This document shows, piece by piece, positions 10,987 through 55,382 of a DNA stretch of 64,000 nucleotides; position 1 is the stretch's first letter, and every line of letters starts with the position of its first letter. Location of the stretch: positions 255,001 through 319,000 of the forward strand of contig CAJHZI010000428.1 of the NCBI GenBank assembly GCA_905160935.1, given 5' to 3'. Source of the DNA: Enchytraeus crypticus. Lineage: Eukaryota > Annelida > Clitellata > Enchytraeida > Enchytraeidae. The translations under genes and the position numbers were made by a program. Below the pieces are notes generated by a model. That model made no database searches. It saw only the letters and a list, made by a program, of their open reading frames with translations, and had not been told where the DNA came from.

Positions 10987-22279
<11,293 letters not shown>

Positions 22280-25756: not shown

Positions 25757-27841
25757 TTAACGTCCCTGGTTGTAGATACTAGTGGTCCAGCCTGTCTTGA
25801 CAGCGCTGGGCTGGCCGCTAGCGTAGCCGTAGAGGGGCTGGGCCCTGCTGCAACCCCCGCACTTGTTGCTCGAGCAGGCGTTGCAGGCGGAGCAGGAGGA
25901 TATGGCCGGGGGAGGAGGCAGGGAGATCCTGGGGGGAGAGTGCACCACGGGGGGCAGGGGGCCGCAGTCCCCGCAGCCCGCCTCGTAGTTAGGGTGTTCC
26001 TGCACGTAGGTGATGCGGGGTCTGAGGCTCTGAATACGCATGACCACGAATAGGAAGCCGATGAACTGAAATTGTATTCGAAATTAATTGTAATAGCTGT
26101 AAAAAAATTTAAATTACAATGTAATTGTAGTAACTGCAAATGTATTGAGGTACGAAATTAAACGAACGAGAGGGAACTCTGTTCCAATAGCTCGATTTTT
26201 TTCTAGGATATACTAGGAGCCCTGTATAGTGGAAGGGGGCCCGAAGTGTTGACCGTTTCACTAGCTCTTAATTTTCACTTGAACCTTTTGCAGTAGAGGA
26301 AAAAGGGTATAAGTAAAAAATGCGAACTCTGTCCCGTAGCAGTGGTGCAAAGAGCCTTGACTGAGAGGTGCTTAAGGCCCCCCCCCCCCTACGCCCAGAA
26401 ATAGGTCACTTTTGCAATTTTTCGAGATTTGCAGAGTTTCTTCAGAGGTGAAAAAATTAACCCACTTCTTCCAGAACAAATGTAGGATTTTAGGTTTTCC
26501 CCTGACTTTAGTACGGATATGAGCGAGGGGGGGCTAAAATATGAGGATACACTCACTCTATGAGCCGATCGAAAAAGTGAACAAATTTTGAGCCCTCCCC
26601 TCTACAACAATTTGTCTGGTTGCATCACTTGTCCCGAAGAAGGCGGGGTGTAAGCAAAAAATGTGAACACTCTCAAAAAATTTTTTCGGGCCCCCTTAAA
26701 ATATTCCTGGATTCGCCCCTGGTCCTCATTGTCGTTAGTACTCATGAATACATTTTTATTGTAGAATCGAGTACTTCGGTGAGACCCGATTAGTAGCAGT
26801 AGTAGACTAAAGACAGATATTAATCTTAATTAGTTTCGTAGTTAGATTTAGTGGCGTCTAAAGTAACTTACCAGTATGATATCCTTGATTACCCAGTAGA
26901 CCAGTGGCACTATAGTGAACTGCAACAATAATCAGAGTTATTAACAAGCAAGTTTCTCAGAAAGCGAAATGTCTAGCTCATAAAACTAAAGTAATTAGAT
27001 AACATGTGATTTTATTTCTTCTTTTTCGTCATCAAGCATTACATAAATTATCCTTGAGGCCTAGCTGAAACAATACATAGACTTTACTGAGTTCTTGCTC
27101 AGTTGCCTCTTGCGATATGTGCAGTTTACGGTTCGTCTGTTCTACCGTTATATTCCTACATAAGGAATGTATTGCAGTCACGATAGTATTAAACAATTTC
27201 TGAAATATTCAGTCAGTTTTTTTAATCTATTTATTGCAATGTTTACACTTCTCAATGTAGATAGTAGGCTATATCTACATTGATAATAGATACTTTTAAA
27301 AAAGCTCTAAAAAAGGAAATACAATAAACGGACGTTAAAACTTTACTATTATTACGCTGAACTATAAACAAGCTCCATTTGAAATTATTTCTACATTTTC
27401 CATATATTTTAAAAAATACAGCTAATCTCCAAGAAAAATAACTCTCCCCGACGGGGAATTGAACCCCGGTCTCCCGCGTGACAGGCGGGGATACTTACCA
27501 CTATACTATCGAGGATTGTACGATTGCGCTTTCTACATAGGCTAATACTTGTGTAAACTTGCTGTGAATATGACTGATACAGGTGAAGCTCGTGTGATAT
27601 TTACTTATGTGATACTGCTTCTGTGTTTAGCTGTCTCTCTCTCTCATTCTCTCTCTCTATCACTACCTCTCTTTCTCCCTCTAACTCTATATCGCTTTCT
27701 CTCTCTTCCCCCTTAATCTCTCTCTTCCCCTTCATTCTCTTCTCTCTATTGCTCTCTCTCTCGCTCTTTCTCTTTCTCTCTCTGTCTCTATCTCGCTTTC
27801 TCTCTCTTCCCCTAATATCCCTCTTCCTCTTCATTCTCTTC

Positions 27842-47306: not shown

Positions 47307-50300
47307 CTAGACAATCATCTCGAGCTCTCTGGCGTAGTCTATAGCCTGCTGGGCTAGATCATAAGAGGGTATGACGTCGTCAGCTTTCTTCTCTCTCTCA
47401 AAGTGCAGCATCCCATCGGCTGCATTCAACTTCCAGTTCCTCTGTACACATACATACACAGACATACAGCCACATGTAATCACATACATACACATACACA
47501 CAGCCACATGTACTCACATACATACACATAGATACAGCCACACATACCCACACACATACACATACATACAGCGACACATACTCACATACATCCATCTCAA
47601 AGGTAGTTTCCCAATGTATTCCTCAGGCAGGATTTGAATTCGGTGCCTTCTGGAATATTAAGCCAATGAAGTTACTGTAACAAAAGTGAGACAGGATGGA
47701 GCGCTTAGCATGAAGAAGCAAGCTTGCAGCTGCTTTGTGATTGGTCTACTATACAGTGTCTCAAACACAACATGAGACACAAGGATTAATATGAAATAAA
47801 AATGAATAGCTATTAAAACCTTTAGGATGAATTCCTGCATCTCAGCCTGCTCGCCTGTCTTAAAGTTGAGCATCCGCATAGCTTCGTGCACTGAGATCTT
47901 ATCATAGGCCTTCTCTATACAGCTGCCTATCTCCACCCTACACACACACACATAAGAATAGCTTAGGCCTTCTCTATACAGCTGCCTATCTCAATATATC
48001 ACACATAAATATAACATAAATCATACATTCATACACACATACCTCCATCATACATACATTGACACAAACATACATACACACATAAAATGTTTAAAGTTCA
48101 CAGTGAATTGGCAGTAAACTTGAACAAGTCAGTGAATACATCGGCTATGAATGATTACATTTCACTATTCATTAAATTTGTTGGAACAGTTGGTTAATTA
48201 ATCCCAACCCTGATTAAACTGGGATTTAAGGGAAGACTATGATGATAGTTGGAACAGTAAGTAAGACTTAAATCCCGAGTTTTTGTATCTTTATATAGAG
48301 ACTGTTTATTTCACTGAACTACAGAATTCAATGGTGACATAAAATTAAAATGAAGCAATTTTTAACAAATATTTCAATTTTCTTTCAATCTTCATTTTAT
48401 TCTCTCACGGCCAAACAGCCGCTGAAGACTGAGCAGATTGTTTAGAGAGGAGAGAGAAAGAGAACCTGAGTGTAGAGATGAGATGAGGCATGAAGAAGAG
48501 ATAGTCCTGGGCCGGTGTGTTACCCTGCGCTGCAAAAACCTGCTCAATCAATCAATCAATCAATCAATCATTGCACACTTGCACAAGCACCAATCAATAG
48601 ACACTCAATCACTGACTACACAAGCACACAGCACTGACCCAAACACTATTATAGAATATACTAGAGTCTATAGAGTCTAGAGTTTAGAGTGAGACATGGC
48701 TGTGATGAACTGACACTTTATGTAAATTGCAATTATTACCGTAGAGTCGCACATATTCTGTCAGCTCAATCAATATCTGATACCATGAGAAAGAATATAT
48801 GTTTATTTCGAAAACAACATCAGTGTAAAGTCGTATACATACAAAGTGTACAAAAACAGAAATAAAACTAAAAGATTACAACAAACATAATCAATGACCA
48901 TGACGTGATAATGATTTATACAATGACATAATTCATTGGCTGATTCATACAATGATAGACAGACTGTACCAGAATGATGGAGTGAATGATTGATTGTTGA
49001 TAAACTGAGCGATTGATTGATTAATGATGTTGTGGGAGCGGTCCTCCATAAGATCTTACTTTATATTCACCCTATGTTTAATAATTGATTGATTGATTGA
49101 TAACCTTGATGTAGCTGCCCTCCATCAGATACTGCTCTATATTGACTCAGTGTTTAATAATTGATTGATTGATTGATAACCTTGTTGTAGCTGCCCTCCA
49201 TCAGATACTGCTCTATAGTGACTCAGTGTTTAATAATTGATTGATTGATTGATAACCTTGTTGTAGCTGCCCTCCATCATATACTGCACTATATTGACTC
49301 AGTGTTTAATAATTGATTGATTGATTGATAACCTTGTTGCAGCTGCCCTCCATCAGATACTGCTCTATATTGACTCAGTGTTTAATAATTGATTGATTGA
49401 TTGATAACCTTGTTGTAGCTGCCTCAATCAGATACTGCACTATTGACTCAGTGTTTAATAATTGATTGATAAATTGAGCTGATACTGCATAGTGATCAGT
49501 GTTAATAATTGATTGATTGATGATAACCTGTGCAGCTGCCTCCATCAGATACTGCACTGTATTGACTCAGTGTTTAATAATTGATTGATTGATTGATAAC
49601 CTTGTTGTAGCTGCCCTCCATCAGATACTGCACTATATTGACTCAGTGTTTACTGATTGATTGATTGATAACCTTGTTGTAGCTGCCCTCCATCAGATAC
49701 TGCACTATATTGACTCAGTGTTTAATAATTGATTGATTGATTGATAACCTTGTTGTAGCTGCCCTTCATCAGATACTGCTCTATAGTGACTCAGTGTTTA
49801 CTGATTGATTGATTGATAACCTTGTTGTAGCTGCCCTCCATAGATACTGACTCAGTGTTTAATAATTGATTGATTGATTGATAACCTTGTTGTAGCTGCC
49901 CTCCATCATATACTGCACTATATTGACTCAGTGTTTAATAATTGATTGATTGATTGATAACCTTGTTGTAGCTGCCCTTCATCAGATACTGCTCTATAGT
50001 GACTCAGTGTTTACTGATTGATTGATTGATAACCTTGTTGTAGCTGCCCTTCATCAGATACTGCTCTATAGTGACTCCGTGTTTACTGATTGATTGATTG
50101 ATAACCTTGTTGTAGCTGCCCTCCATAAGATACTGCACTATATTGACTCAGTGTTTACTGATTGATTGATTGATAACCTTGTTGTAGCTGCCCTCCATCA
50201 GATACTGCACTATATTGACTCAGTGTTTACTGATTGATTGATTGATAACCTTGTTGTAGCTGCCCTCCATCAGATACTGCTCTATAGTGACTCAGTGTTT

Positions 50301-53300
50301 ACTGATTGATTGATTGATAGATAACCTTGTTGTAGCTGCCCTCCATCAGATACTGTTCTATATTGACGGGGTGTTTGATGTACTTGTCATTCTGCCTCAC
50401 GTCTACCGGCAGTAGCTCTAGCTCAGTGTGGAAGTCAGCGAGCTTGTTCTGAGACAAGAGTCGCAGCAGGTTCAGTCCAAGCAGCTGATTCTTGTACGCT
50501 GACTCTCGTATGCCAGCCGGGCTGCAACACAACACAATGATGAGCTATCGTCCAGCTCAGGGTCAGCACAATCATGTCAGGGGCAGCACAATCATGTCAG
50601 GGGCAGCACAATCATGTCAGAGGCAACACAATCATGTCAGAGGCAGCACAGTCATGTCAGGGGCAGCACAATCATATCTGGGGCAGCACAGTCATGTCAG
50701 AGGCAGCACAGTCATGTTAGGGGCAGCACAGTCATGTCAGGGGCAGCACAGTCATGTCAGGGGCAGCACAGTCATGTCAGGGGCATAGATATACATAGAG
50801 GATATCAATGCTCACAGATAGTCTAGACAGAGGATAGCAATGCTTACAGATAATCTAGCTACACACAGAGGATAGTAATGCTCACAGATAGTCTAGATAG
50901 ACATAGAGGATAGTAATGCTCACAGATAGTCTAGATAGACATAGAGGATAGTAATGCTCACAGATAGTCTAGATAGACATAGAGGATAGTAATGCTCACA
51001 GATAGTCTAGATAGACACAGAGGATAGTAATGCTCACAGATAGTCTAGATAGACACAGAGGATAGTAATGCTCACAGATAGTCTAGATAGACATAGAGGA
51101 TAGTAATGCTCACAGATAGTCTAGATAGACACAGAGGATAGTAATGCTCACAGATAGTCTAGTAACACAGATGATATAATGATCACAGATAGTCTGATAA
51201 CGATTAGAGTATGTAATGCTGCACCCCGTATGAGTCTAGATAAACATAGAGATATTAATGCTCCAGTATAGTCTAGTAGATCTATAGAGGATTATTAAGT
51301 AATGCTCAGATAGACAGATAGTCTAGATAGACATAGAGGATAGTAATGCTCACAGATAGTCTAGATAGACATAGAGGATAGTAATGCTCACAGATAGTCT
51401 AGATAGACACAGAGGATAGTAATGCTCACAGATAGTCGAGATAGACATAGAGGATAGTAATGCTCACAGATAGTCTAGATAGACATAGAGGATAGTAATG
51501 CTCACAGATAGTCTAGATAGACATAGAGGATAGTAATGCTCACAGATAGTCTAGATAGACACAGAGGATAGTAATGCTCACAGATAGTCTAGATAGACAT
51601 AGAGGATAGTAATGCTCACAGATAGTCTAGATAGACACAGAGGATAGTAATGCTCACAGATAGTCTAGATAGACACAGAGGATAGTAATGCTCACAGATA
51701 GTCTAGATAGACATAGAGGATAGTAATGCTCACAGATAGTCTAGATAGACATAGAGGATAGTAATGCTCACAGATAGTCTAGATAGACATAGAGGATAGT
51801 AATGCTCACAGATAGTCTCACAGATAGAGATAGACATAGAGGATAGTAATGCTCACAGATAGTCTAGATAGACATAGAGGATAGTAATGCTCACAGATAG
51901 TCTAGATAGACATAGAGGATAGTAATGCTCACAGATAGTCTAGATAGACACAGAGGATAGTAATGCTCACAGATAGTCTAGATAGACATAGAGGATAGTA
52001 ATGCTCACAGATAGTCTAGATAGACACAGAGGATAGTAATGCTCACAGATAGTCTAGATAGACACAGAGGATAGTAATGCTCACAGATAGTCTAGATAGA
52101 CACAGAGGATAGTAATGATCACAGATAGTCTAGATAGACATAGAGGATAGTAATGCTCACAGATAGTCTAGATAGACATAGAGGATAGTAATGCTCACAG
52201 ATAGTCTAGATAGACATAGAGGATAGTAATGCTCACAGATAGTCTAGATAGACATAGAGGATAGTAATGCTCACAGATAGTCAAGATAGACATAGAGGAT
52301 AGTAATGCTCACAGATAGTCTAGATAGACATAGAGGATAGTAATGCTCACAGATAGTCTAGATAGACATAGAGGATAGTAATGCTCACAGATAGTCTAGA
52401 TAGACATAGAGGATAGTAATGCTCACAGATAGTCTAGATAGACATAGAGGATAGTAATGCTCACAGATAGTCTAGATAGACACAGAGGATAGTAATGCTC
52501 ACAGATAGTCTAGATAGACACAGAGGATAGTAATGCTCACAGATAGTCTAGATAGACACAGAGGATAGTAATGCTCACAGATAGTCTAGATAGACATAGA
52601 GGATAGTAATGCTCACAGATAGTCTAGATAGACATAGAGGATAGTAATGCTCACAGATAATCTAGATAGTAGCATTTGAGCTGAGCCATGTAACGCTCAA
52701 ATGACTCAACGTCTTTCTTCTTTATAGACCACTGAGCACCTATCTCCAGTATATCACCTGAACCAATCAATCAGTCAATCAACCAATCAATCAGTCAGTC
52801 AATCAACCAATCAGTCAGTCAGTCAACAAATCAATCAGTTAGTCAGTAAACCAATCAATCAGTCAGTCAACCAATCAATCAGTCAGTCAGTCAACCAATC
52901 AGTCAGTCAGTCAGTCAGTCAGTCAACCAATCAATCAGTCAGTCAATCAACCAATCAATAAGTCAATCAGCCACTCAATCAATCAATCAATCAACCAATC
53001 AATCAGTCAAACAAATTGTTAGCTCGTTAACTAGTGAACAACTTTAATAAAAGAAATAGTTTCATAAAAAACCTAAAATATAGCCCTTTAAAATCAAATC
53101 TATCAAATAATAAACATTTAGCCTCTAGGAAATAGCAACTAAAGCAAAACTGATTTACATACTAGATATATAAAGAAATTCACGCAGTAGTTTTACGTAC
53201 GTGCATATGTGACCTCGAGCAGCTCTTGATTAGGGCTCTGTGTGGGTAGAAAACTGAACTGTGCCTGCGTCAACTTTACCTACAAATACCATTTTAAAAC

Positions 53301-55382
53301 CTGACATTGTTTTAAACACATACAAATCCTGAAGAATCTGATTGGTGAATACAAGCAACCCAGATGTTTGGCTTTTTTCACATCGGCTCGTAGGACAAAA
53401 TTTTGATTTTACTCTACTTTTACCGTAAACTAAGATTAGATACAATTTATTAAAAGAATGGAAAATCTAGACTGCAACTTACTCTAATTAGAAATTTGGC
53501 GAAAAATGAATTAACTTTTCTACGTTCATTATAATTTTATTACTACAAATATAGCAGTACTATTATCAATAAAGTAGTGCAAACTCTAAAAGTAATCTAG
53601 TCCCAGTCACTGATGAATAGACCAACAGTGAATGCCGCAGTAGAGGAATTAGTAGGAGCTCAAGAAAACAATAGGAAACATCATAAATGCTTTTCAATCA
53701 TTACTAATGTTTGAAATAAAATGTTAATGTTAAAATGTTAATGTTTGATGATAAACTGAATAAGAGAGATTTAAAACTAAATACAGATAAAACAGAAAAA
53801 TATACCATTGGAAACAAAAATGATCAGGAATGGAAGAAATGCAAATATTTAGGTGCTAACTTGGATACTGAAAGAGACATAATCCATAGAAGGCAATTGT
53901 GTATGGCTATTTTTAATAAATATAAGATGAAAATAACAAATAGCAAAATAACAATGAAAACAAGAATAAATATATTTAATGCTTATATTACGCCAGTTTA
54001 CTTATATAATAGTGAGCTATGGACATTAACTTCAAAACAGGAACACGAAATTGACATATTTCATAGAAGTCTATTAAGAAAAATACTTGAAATATATTAC
54101 TCTCACATTATAAGCAACGATAACTTATACATCAGAACAAATGAAAAATGGAGTCTTGCAATTAAAACACGAAGACTAAAATGGATAGGTCTCTTACTTA
54201 CATCACCGAACAATGCGCCTGTAAAACTTGCTTTACATGAGAATAAAAAATCTCAGACAAAACAAAGAGGTTGTCAAAATAAGCAAACATGGATCAAATT
54301 AGTAAATAAAGATCTCAAAGATGTAAATCAGAATTTGAACATATTGGATGAGAGCATCTGTGATCTGGCTGAGGATAGAGCGAAGTGGAGTCAATTAACC
54401 TTGAAACCTACTGCAGGGTCCAAATAGGACGTAGTGCAGTCTTAGTAGTAGTAGTAATGTTTGAAAAGGCTTTATAATTTTTGTGTCATAAAAATGGTAT
54501 GTTGTGGTATGGTATAAAAATGGACCACACTGTTATATGGATTTGAAACATGGACATTAAGGAAGGAAGATGTCAGGAAACTAGAAGCTTTGGAAATGTG
54601 GATAAGGAGAAGAACGAAAAAGATTAGCTGGACCCAAAAAGTTACAAATGAAGAAGTCTTGAGGAGAGTGGGTACAGATAGACACTTGATAAGTGCCACA
54701 AGAAATAGGAAAAATTGGATAGGACACATTCTAAACAGAGATGTTTGCTAAAGGAGGTTTAGTAGGTAGAATAACATAACATAACATTACATTGTCAGGA
54801 AGCAATTATGTGCTTGTTTAAGACTCAGGCTCTTAACTAAAACCATTTAGTATTAATCAAATCATACAGACTTAATGTCAACATGTCAAATTTATACATA
54901 GGCCTAGCCTATGGTAGGGAAAGGGAACAGAGAGACCAAGAGTAGGCATGTTAGGTGATTTAAAGATCCACCCGTAAGTGCCATGAAGAGGAAAACAGAA
55001 GACAGAAAAGAGCAGGCTTTACATACCATGGACCTGTCAGTTGGCAGTGCACTAAGAGAGAAAAATGGTACACAGTGTGCACTATATCAAGCTTAGAGGC
55101 ATACTTTAGATACGAATATATAATTCTAACCTGCCAAATGTCTTTAAAATCTGAGACAGAAGAAAAATATAACATAATTTTTTATATTGTTAAAGCCGGT
55201 AACGATGATTAGGTGATTTTGAATGACTAGATATAGAATTGAGCGAGAATAGAGGATACCTTGAGCTGATCGAGGAGTCTGCCGCACTCACTGAGGCCTT
55301 GAGGGGTCTCTCTTTGAGTGTACGCCCTCCACTCCTCCATCAGCTTATCGTGCAGAGGAATTATTTCTCTTCCTGCGCTCAT
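47307..55382 (-). CDS. PSMD8: 26S proteasome lid subunit PSMD8/Rpn12, 7 exons
   Basis: Non-ATPase regulatory subunit 8 of the 19S lid. Exons in transcript order: 55260-55382, 53201-53279, 52655-52757, 50326-50521, 48466-48539, 47820-47937, 47307-47441 (stop TAG). They join in frame to 828 nt, 275 aa. Conserved blocks: [80 protein letters not shown] and the C-terminal YARELEMIV typical of Rpn12. Donors are variable (GTATCC, GTACGT, GTGAGC, GTTATC, GTTCTC, GTTTTA). Introns 3 and 4 are filled with tandem copies of the preceding exon end plus its donor. Intron 1 holds retrotransposon fragments. Confidence 0.95.
49085..50325 (-). repeat. About 70-bp array of PSMD8 exon 4 end, donor and (ATCA)n
   Basis: About 16 copies, 65-78 bp each. 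In sense each has CAGTATCTGATGGAGGGC, the CTACAACAAG exon end, the GTTATC donor, then (AATC)n. The real exon 4 end is at 50326. Copies carry substitutions and small deletions (for example 49418-49560), so they are not coding. Confidence 0.92.
50565..50786. repeat. 20-bp minisatellite at the 3' end of PSMD8 intron 3
   Basis: About 11 copies of GGCAGCACAATCATGTCAGG and close variants, ending about 45 bp from the exon 4 acceptor. An open frame through it (QHNHVRGS repeats) is a by-product of the repeat. Confidence 0.9.
50805..52654 (-). repeat. 38-bp minisatellite made from PSMD8 exon 3 end and its donor
   Basis: About 48 head-to-tail 38-bp units with a degenerate stretch near 51160-51310. In the sense direction each unit holds TCTAGACTATCT followed by GTGAGC, matching the last 15 or so nt of exon 3 (TCTAGATTATCT at 52655) and its splice donor, then 23 nt of intron start. 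The array begins directly at the real donor and fills most of intron 3. Units differ mainly by a C/T (CACAGAGG or CATAGAGG). Confidence 0.93.
53735..54427 (+). mobile_element. LINE-B reverse-transcriptase C-terminal fragment, 230 codons open
   Basis: [54 protein letters not shown] and [11 protein letters not shown] match the thumb and C-terminal layout of RTE/Nimb-type endonuclease-RT elements. No stop over 230 codons suggests a fairly recent insertion. It lies antisense in PSMD8 intron 1. Confidence 0.85.
54527..55065 (+). mobile_element. Second LINE-B fragments with 3' end
   Basis: Reading from about 54527, [19 protein letters not shown] and [14 protein letters not shown] give the same RT C-terminal region as the preceding element but a diverged copy. 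After a gap, 54910-55065 holds the family's 3' end (reads like [14 protein letters not shown], then CCATGGACCTGTCAGTTGGC and CACTAAGAGAG). Confidence 0.75.

Follow-up and report, generated by a model that had tools for sequence, protein, structure and literature searches.

How does a cell choose the right 5′ splice site (donor) when dozens of near-identical ones follow it in the same intron? The question is raised by the third intron of PSMD8, a proteasome subunit gene on the minus strand of a 64,000-nt stretch of DNA (positions 255,001 to 319,000 of contig CAJHZI010000428.1, assembly GCA_905160935.1; the whole stretch is here called the window), where the real exon end and donor are followed by a long array of 38-bp repeats. 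Tandem repeats across exon-intron boundaries have been named "mirages" in lancelets (PMC3087553); the array in PSMD8 is a real, large and locally made mirage array of the donor type, and its further donors, here called decoys, are probably tolerated passengers, the use of the first donor being set by exon context. The array is notable for its copy number, for having a counterpart in the adjacent intron, and for belonging to a genome with frequent arrays at the exons surveyed.

According to the gene model, the seven exons of PSMD8 join to encode an intact protein of 275 aa, which matches human PSMD8 with an E value of about 3e-79, the motif CYY.DY being conserved, and the Pfam family PF10075 with an E value of 6.9e-38. 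Exon 3 (52655..52757) ends ...KCYYLDY(L) at the real donor CTATCTAGATTATCT/GTGAGC, as placed by the intact spliced open reading frame (ORF); intron 3 (50522..52654; 2,133 nt, phase 2, GT...TTGCAG) leads to exon 4 (50326..50521), which ends ...EGSYNK/GTTATC and is followed by intron 4 (48540-50325), all on the minus strand. On this strand the array opens with the donor of exon 3 (GT at 52654-52653) and continues with repeats of GTGAGCATTACTATCCTCTRTGTCTATCTAGACTATCT; Tandem Repeats Finder (TRF) locates it at 50786-52669 with a period of 38, 49.2 copies and 93% matches. The first-pass annotation had described an intron that opens with the real exon end and donor and goes on with about 48 copies of a 38-bp unit; both points are borne out, as 49 unit starts were counted in a unit-by-unit alignment, one of them the real donor and 48 beyond it. 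Exact GTGAGC is present 43 times, the real donor included, that is, in 42 of the 48 further units; 45 of the 48 are donor-like (GTGAGC, GTGATC or GTAAGC, with three having one of the latter two) and three are degenerate. What had to be amended is the extent, given earlier as 50805..52654: the array reaches beyond both of these ends, and about 164 nt of it (51152..51315, minus strand; unit-by-unit alignment) consist of degenerate units. A separate 20-bp array of 11.4 copies (TRF; 50557..50785, minus strand) is also located in intron 3.

The register of the array runs into exon 3, the last 15 nt of which match the unit at 14 of 15 positions; given the exon composition, the chance of an in-register match of at least 14 in 15 is about 4e-8. 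The earlier description of the units as near-perfect decoys of the real donor, each preceded by a short piece of exon (about 15 nt), is correct. The exon-plus-donor motif CTATCTAGAYTATCTGTGAGCATTRC has 38 exact matches in the 524-Mb genome, all of them inside the intron 3 array, and the same pattern read backwards has no match in the genome, the search having covered exact matches. By this measure the array is a local copy of the junction, and a dispersed satellite is ruled out; the 38-bp unit was not found in viral contigs either. The observation itself rests on the register and on the absence of the motif elsewhere, not on raw similarity. As the exact motif is confined to the array, local copying is its most likely origin, and as its exon side is conserved coding sequence (CYY.DY), the exon was most likely the source and the intron the recipient. 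A single unit, third in order from the far end (50848-50885), keeps the exon's GATTATCT where the other units have GACTATCT (the exon T vs C), which, being a single unit, lends weak support to this direction. Taken together, register, motif, coding conservation and the one exon-like unit suggest that the intron received its copies from the exon.

From position −3 to +6 the real donor and the 42 exact decoys are identical; thus the spliceosome does face, as had been proposed, dozens of locally equivalent donors, 43 of them identical over this range. Use of the first donor yields the 275-aa protein, and use of any of the donor-like decoys yields one and the same product of 102 residues (45/45), because reading on past the first donor gives CTG TGA in frame and all 45 therefore end at the same TGA; the earlier expectation that decoy use would usually shift the frame is thereby replaced by an immediate stop. 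Reading through PSMD8 intron 4 also leads to an early stop (VIYQSINQ, then the stop codon). The intact ORF obtained with the first donor is the one argument here for regular splicing.

How such an intron most likely arose and was kept can be outlined as follows. A stretch across the junction of exon 3 and intron 3 (about 15 nt of exon and 23 nt of intron) was probably duplicated in tandem on the intron side, and the duplicate expanded to about 49 units, presumably by slippage or unequal exchange. The gene would stay functional because splicing keeps to the first donor, the sole donor with a complete exon 3 in front of it; each unit holds only the last 15 nt of the exon and hence would come without the upstream exon context that fixes the choice. 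Use of the first donor, and its selection by exon context, would be the core of this scenario. The architecture is not confined to one intron; it recurs in PSMD8 intron 4 and, as copies of exon edges, at 11 of 47 surveyed exons (see below).

Several results weigh against this scenario or parts of it. For comparison of splice sites, a set of 22 introns in all was used, comprising those of PSMD8, of an HSP110/HSPA4-like gene and of four alpha-tubulin exons in the window. With a leave-one-out matrix the real intron 3 donor scores lowest among the 22 (0.61), a value reached or surpassed by 46 of the 129 GT sites in intron 3; site strength therefore does not explain the choice, and a stronger real donor as its basis is ruled out. 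Sites scoring equally are also numerous in introns devoid of donor arrays (34 in intron 5 of the HSP110-like gene, 21 in PSMD8 intron 6), so that intron 3 does not stand out by its number of decoys as counted by matrix. The real donor of intron 4 has a predicted accessibility of 0.41, below that of 14 of the 15 decoys there (mean 0.52). A test of the intron 3 array for higher-order block structure, such as segmental expansion would leave, gave a negative result (956 of 2,000 shuffles), and a register-free alignment of the exon 3 edge was not significant against shuffles either, the edge scoring 12.5 with its own intron, 10.0 with the best other intron and 14.0 with the best of 100 shuffles.

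Structural masking of the decoys is likewise ruled out, the predicted mean unpaired probability in intron 3 being 0.55 for the real donor vs 0.54 on average for the 42 decoys, that is, equal, and the difference in intron 4 having the wrong direction. What remains as candidates for the choice would be exon context beyond the last 15 nt, or the order of transcription. That flanking exon sequence can steer the choice of donor, in either direction, is seen from human DOK7, where an SRSF1 site closely precedes a pair of donors and turns splicing, in this instance, away from the upstream one (PMC5585400).

A role for the decoys in regulating PSMD8 output is the alternative that fares best, and it is improbable all the same. 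Here, the fraction spliced at decoys would hit the TGA just past the junction and be removed by nonsense-mediated decay, so that array length and the levels of U1 and SR proteins would tune proteasome supply. The shared early stop of all 45 donor-like decoys speaks for it; in addition, the exact decoys equal a weak real donor over the −3 to +6 positions, and donor arrays are present in two adjacent introns of PSMD8 as well as in a PSMB2-like gene. However, genes such as CCT and the HSP110-like one also have exons with arrays, for the most part acceptor-side ones, and this is more in keeping with a mutational habit than with a device specific to the proteasome. Nor is there a sign of selection on donor positions, the variation at which does not exceed that in the rest of the 38-bp unit, so that decoys do not seem to have been purged. 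A role in buffering or regulation, as put forward in the first-pass annotation, gains no positive support here.

Less likely still is a stepwise removal of the intron, in which splices within the array would shorten it before the final splice, possibly leaving microexons of 7 nt. It could draw on an AG 7 bases upstream of the GT (TCTATCTAG/ACTATCT/GTGAGC), which recurs in register in most units. Pieces of 31 nt from GT to AG are, however, probably too short for splicing, so that the AG/GT pairs would have to skip units, and the frame would be shifted if one or two of the 7-nt pieces stayed in the mRNA. That the copy number was inflated or collapsed by an assembly error is no more credible; tandem arrays are hard to assemble, but the units differ from each other by an A/G variant, by single changes and by the one degenerate block, and comparable arrays exist at other loci. 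An unrelated satellite that happens to resemble the exon end, for which the non-significant register-free test could be cited, has a negligible chance in view of the in-register match, the absence of exact copies of the motif elsewhere in the genome and the same exon-edge relation at many other exons.

The window holds a second donor-type array, in PSMD8 intron 4 (49011..50367, minus strand; TRF), the unit of which is mostly 72 or 76 bp long and which reaches 42 nt into exon 4. A BLAST comparison of this intron with the exon 4 edge gave 15 copies of edge plus donor, 13 of 54 nt and two of 42 nt, besides one fragment of 16 nt, with E values down to 7e-21. In PSMD8 intron 5 a 25-nt stretch (47968..47992, minus strand; BLAST) is identical to the start of exon 6, with no AG at the edge of the copy. 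Acceptor-type copies occur in the HSP110/HSPA4-like gene, which was modeled with 14 exons and a single stop, and whose product has Heat shock protein 105 kDa as its best solved match (E 3e-113) and matches Pfam HSP70 (E 1e-135). Its intron 5 contains a copy of the start of exon 6 together with the AG (14742..14783, plus strand; 40 of 42 nt identical); use of this decoy acceptor would add 123 nt (14750-14872; 41 codons), in frame and free of stops, and may possibly be a source of an alternative protein. In intron 9 the start of exon 10 is copied (18672..18793, plus strand; 113 of 122 nt identical), and use of the copy would bring a stop. Two degenerate acceptor-type copies upstream of exon 12, in intron 11 (20412..20514, plus strand; TRF), are weak and did not rise above shuffles in the alignment test (10.0 vs 11.0). 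Counting the latter, exon-edge copies are present in six of the 22 window introns; the clear cases are introns 4 and 5 of PSMD8 together with introns 5 and 9 of the HSP110-like gene, and PSMD8 intron 3 is supported by its register. Repeats cover 33% of the last 60 nt of the window introns, 24% of their interior and 15% of the first 60 nt, a milder contrast than at the exons surveyed elsewhere (see below).

As for PSMD8 itself, no second gene was found in the assembly by protein search, all seven matches lying within the window; a search for the family gave one further weak match, on contig C620, and among contigs of bacterial and archaeal genomes 15 pattern matches to PSMD8 relatives were obtained, none of which was confirmed. 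Intron 1 of PSMD8 contains an open frame (53720-54427), antisense to the gene, which we take to resemble a fragment of a non-LTR (long terminal repeat) retrotransposon. A tRNA-Asp (GTC) gene is present at 27444-27515 on the minus strand of the window.

Exons elsewhere in the genome were surveyed with a sample of CCT chaperonin exons (30 of 57 matches) and proteasome subunit exons (20 of 27 matches); three CCT loci with long single open frames (L029, L047, L048) were dropped before the count, leaving 47 exons, which are not independent because several loci overlap or share one gene. A same-strand copy of an exon's own edge within the adjoining 600 bp (E 1e-5) was found at 11 of the 47, ten times on the acceptor side and once on the donor side (binomial P 0.012). 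The control, with 2,078 pairs from different genes, gave one match, and no reverse-strand matches to an own edge were seen among the 47 exons. Outside the 11, two loci fell below the line (L033 and L075, 15 nt each, E 8e-4); with L033 the CCT exons would stand at nine of 30. At L075, a proteasome-family exon, the end GGAATCTGCTGT/GTATGTCTCTC recurs downstream in repeats plain to the eye, which are of the donor type. Acceptor-type arrays of two to four units, each consisting of intron end and exon start, are found at L038, L046, L050, L054, L055 and L067, and in the acceptor-type arrays at the surveyed loci most units keep their AG, as judged by eye. Repeats with a period of at least 15 likewise crowd on the upstream side, covering 28% of the first 50 nt there vs 6–10% at 300–600 nt; downstream of the exon matches the figures are 16% vs 11–15%. 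Taken at single points, upstream repeats are present at 13 of 47 exons at 25 nt, vs three of 47 at 325 nt (P 0.012) and five of 47 at 475 nt (P 0.065). Donor arrays of the PSMD8 type are the rarer kind in this survey. One CCT-family gene occurs with equal scores and frame lengths at G000:C259:222108-222410 and C400:247840-248142, perhaps as an unmerged haplotype or a recent duplication.

One surveyed donor-type array (L070 and L079; G000:C774:1391000-1394295, minus strand; units of 51 or 54 bp) belongs to a PSMB2-like gene, the L070 exon matching proteasome subunit beta type-2 with E 1.7e-16. The exon end CTACAAACCAG/GTACAC is followed by 51- and 54-bp units with the same donor, 13 strict-motif donors in all, the real one among them; these are followed by more units of degenerate form, and then by the likely next exon (ACATGACAGAG...). 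The frame is open throughout, and decoy use is predicted to insert repeats of 17–18 residues, not to end the protein. From here a wider proposal can be made, which as a whole is rather doubtful: arrays of splice junctions, 3′ ones for the most part and 5′ ones now and then, would be scattered all over the genome; the spliceosome would ignore dozens of locally identical sites by reading whole exons; decoys with open frames, such as the PSMB2-like 54-bp units and that of HSP110-like intron 5, would be used at some rate to give "stuttered" proteins; and mirage arrays would be a live source of new exons and introns.

The choice of splice sites is usually studied with few competing sites in minigenes, and PSMD8 intron 3, with its identical donors, is a natural test of how cells pick the right site among near-identical ones; junction reads counted for each unit would show to what extent the exon context prevails over local sequence and position. 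Many smaller arrays are present at other exons. The arrays carry the mirage idea of exon and intron origin from lancelets to what is probably another lineage, and their frequency at the surveyed exons makes it statistically testable. Mirage minisatellites are a known but little-studied kind of repeat, of which PSMD8 is a large example.

The host appears to be a bilaterian and probably not a lancelet. Homeodomain matches number 151, the strongest being spread over several contigs, and COX1 is readable under the invertebrate mitochondrial code, with TGA standing for Trp and AGA found where Ser is conserved; both point to a bilaterian, and a sponge, considered at first, was rejected in their light. 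Against a lancelet speak the spread of the homeodomain matches, on the assumption that Hox genes are among them, and the AGG codons of COX1, which are not known from Branchiostoma. COX1-like matches with in-frame TGA are also present on five other contigs (G000:C361, C424, C796, C373 and C166) and are probably nuclear copies of mitochondrial DNA.

A search of openly licensed papers found no such arrays described outside lancelets and human IFI6. In IFI6 (6-16/G1P3), two downstream minisatellite units are used as donors, giving three mRNAs (PMC4526556). PSMD8 shares with it a minisatellite at an exon end with units potentially able to serve as donors; it differs in that every donor-like decoy is predicted to bring an immediate stop. 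Tandem arrays and internal duplications with AG/GT are also on record as sources of introns (Rogers 1989, Zhuo 2007, Gao and Lynch 2009; via PMC3087553); these resemble the present case in the tandem copies of splice-signal sequence and, as referred to there, differ in that they explain new introns. The closest counterparts are the lancelet mirages of the globin genes BflGb6 and BflGb9, reported together with citations of Adh3 and other loci (PMC3087553), to which PGBD5 was added and for which troponin C is cited (PMC3902484). According to passages of the globin paper, mirages seem not to disturb regular splicing, either boundary can be duplicated, the units could act as cryptic sites, and introns may arise from them (PMC3087553). 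Unit lengths are of the same order, with 10–72 bp in lancelet Adh3 and 60–160 bp in the globins and PGBD5 (PMC3087553, PMC3902484). In PSMD8 introns 3 and 4 the unit spans the exon-intron boundary, most units of the intron 3 array keep the splice signal (42 of 48 exactly, 45 of 48 in donor-like form), and both donor and acceptor boundaries are represented in the window as well as among the surveyed exons; the PSMD8 array is thus a mirage by structural definition. It is unlike the lancelet mirages in having up to 48 further units in one intron, in affecting two adjacent introns of one gene, and in being accompanied by exon-edge copies at nearly a quarter of the exons surveyed.
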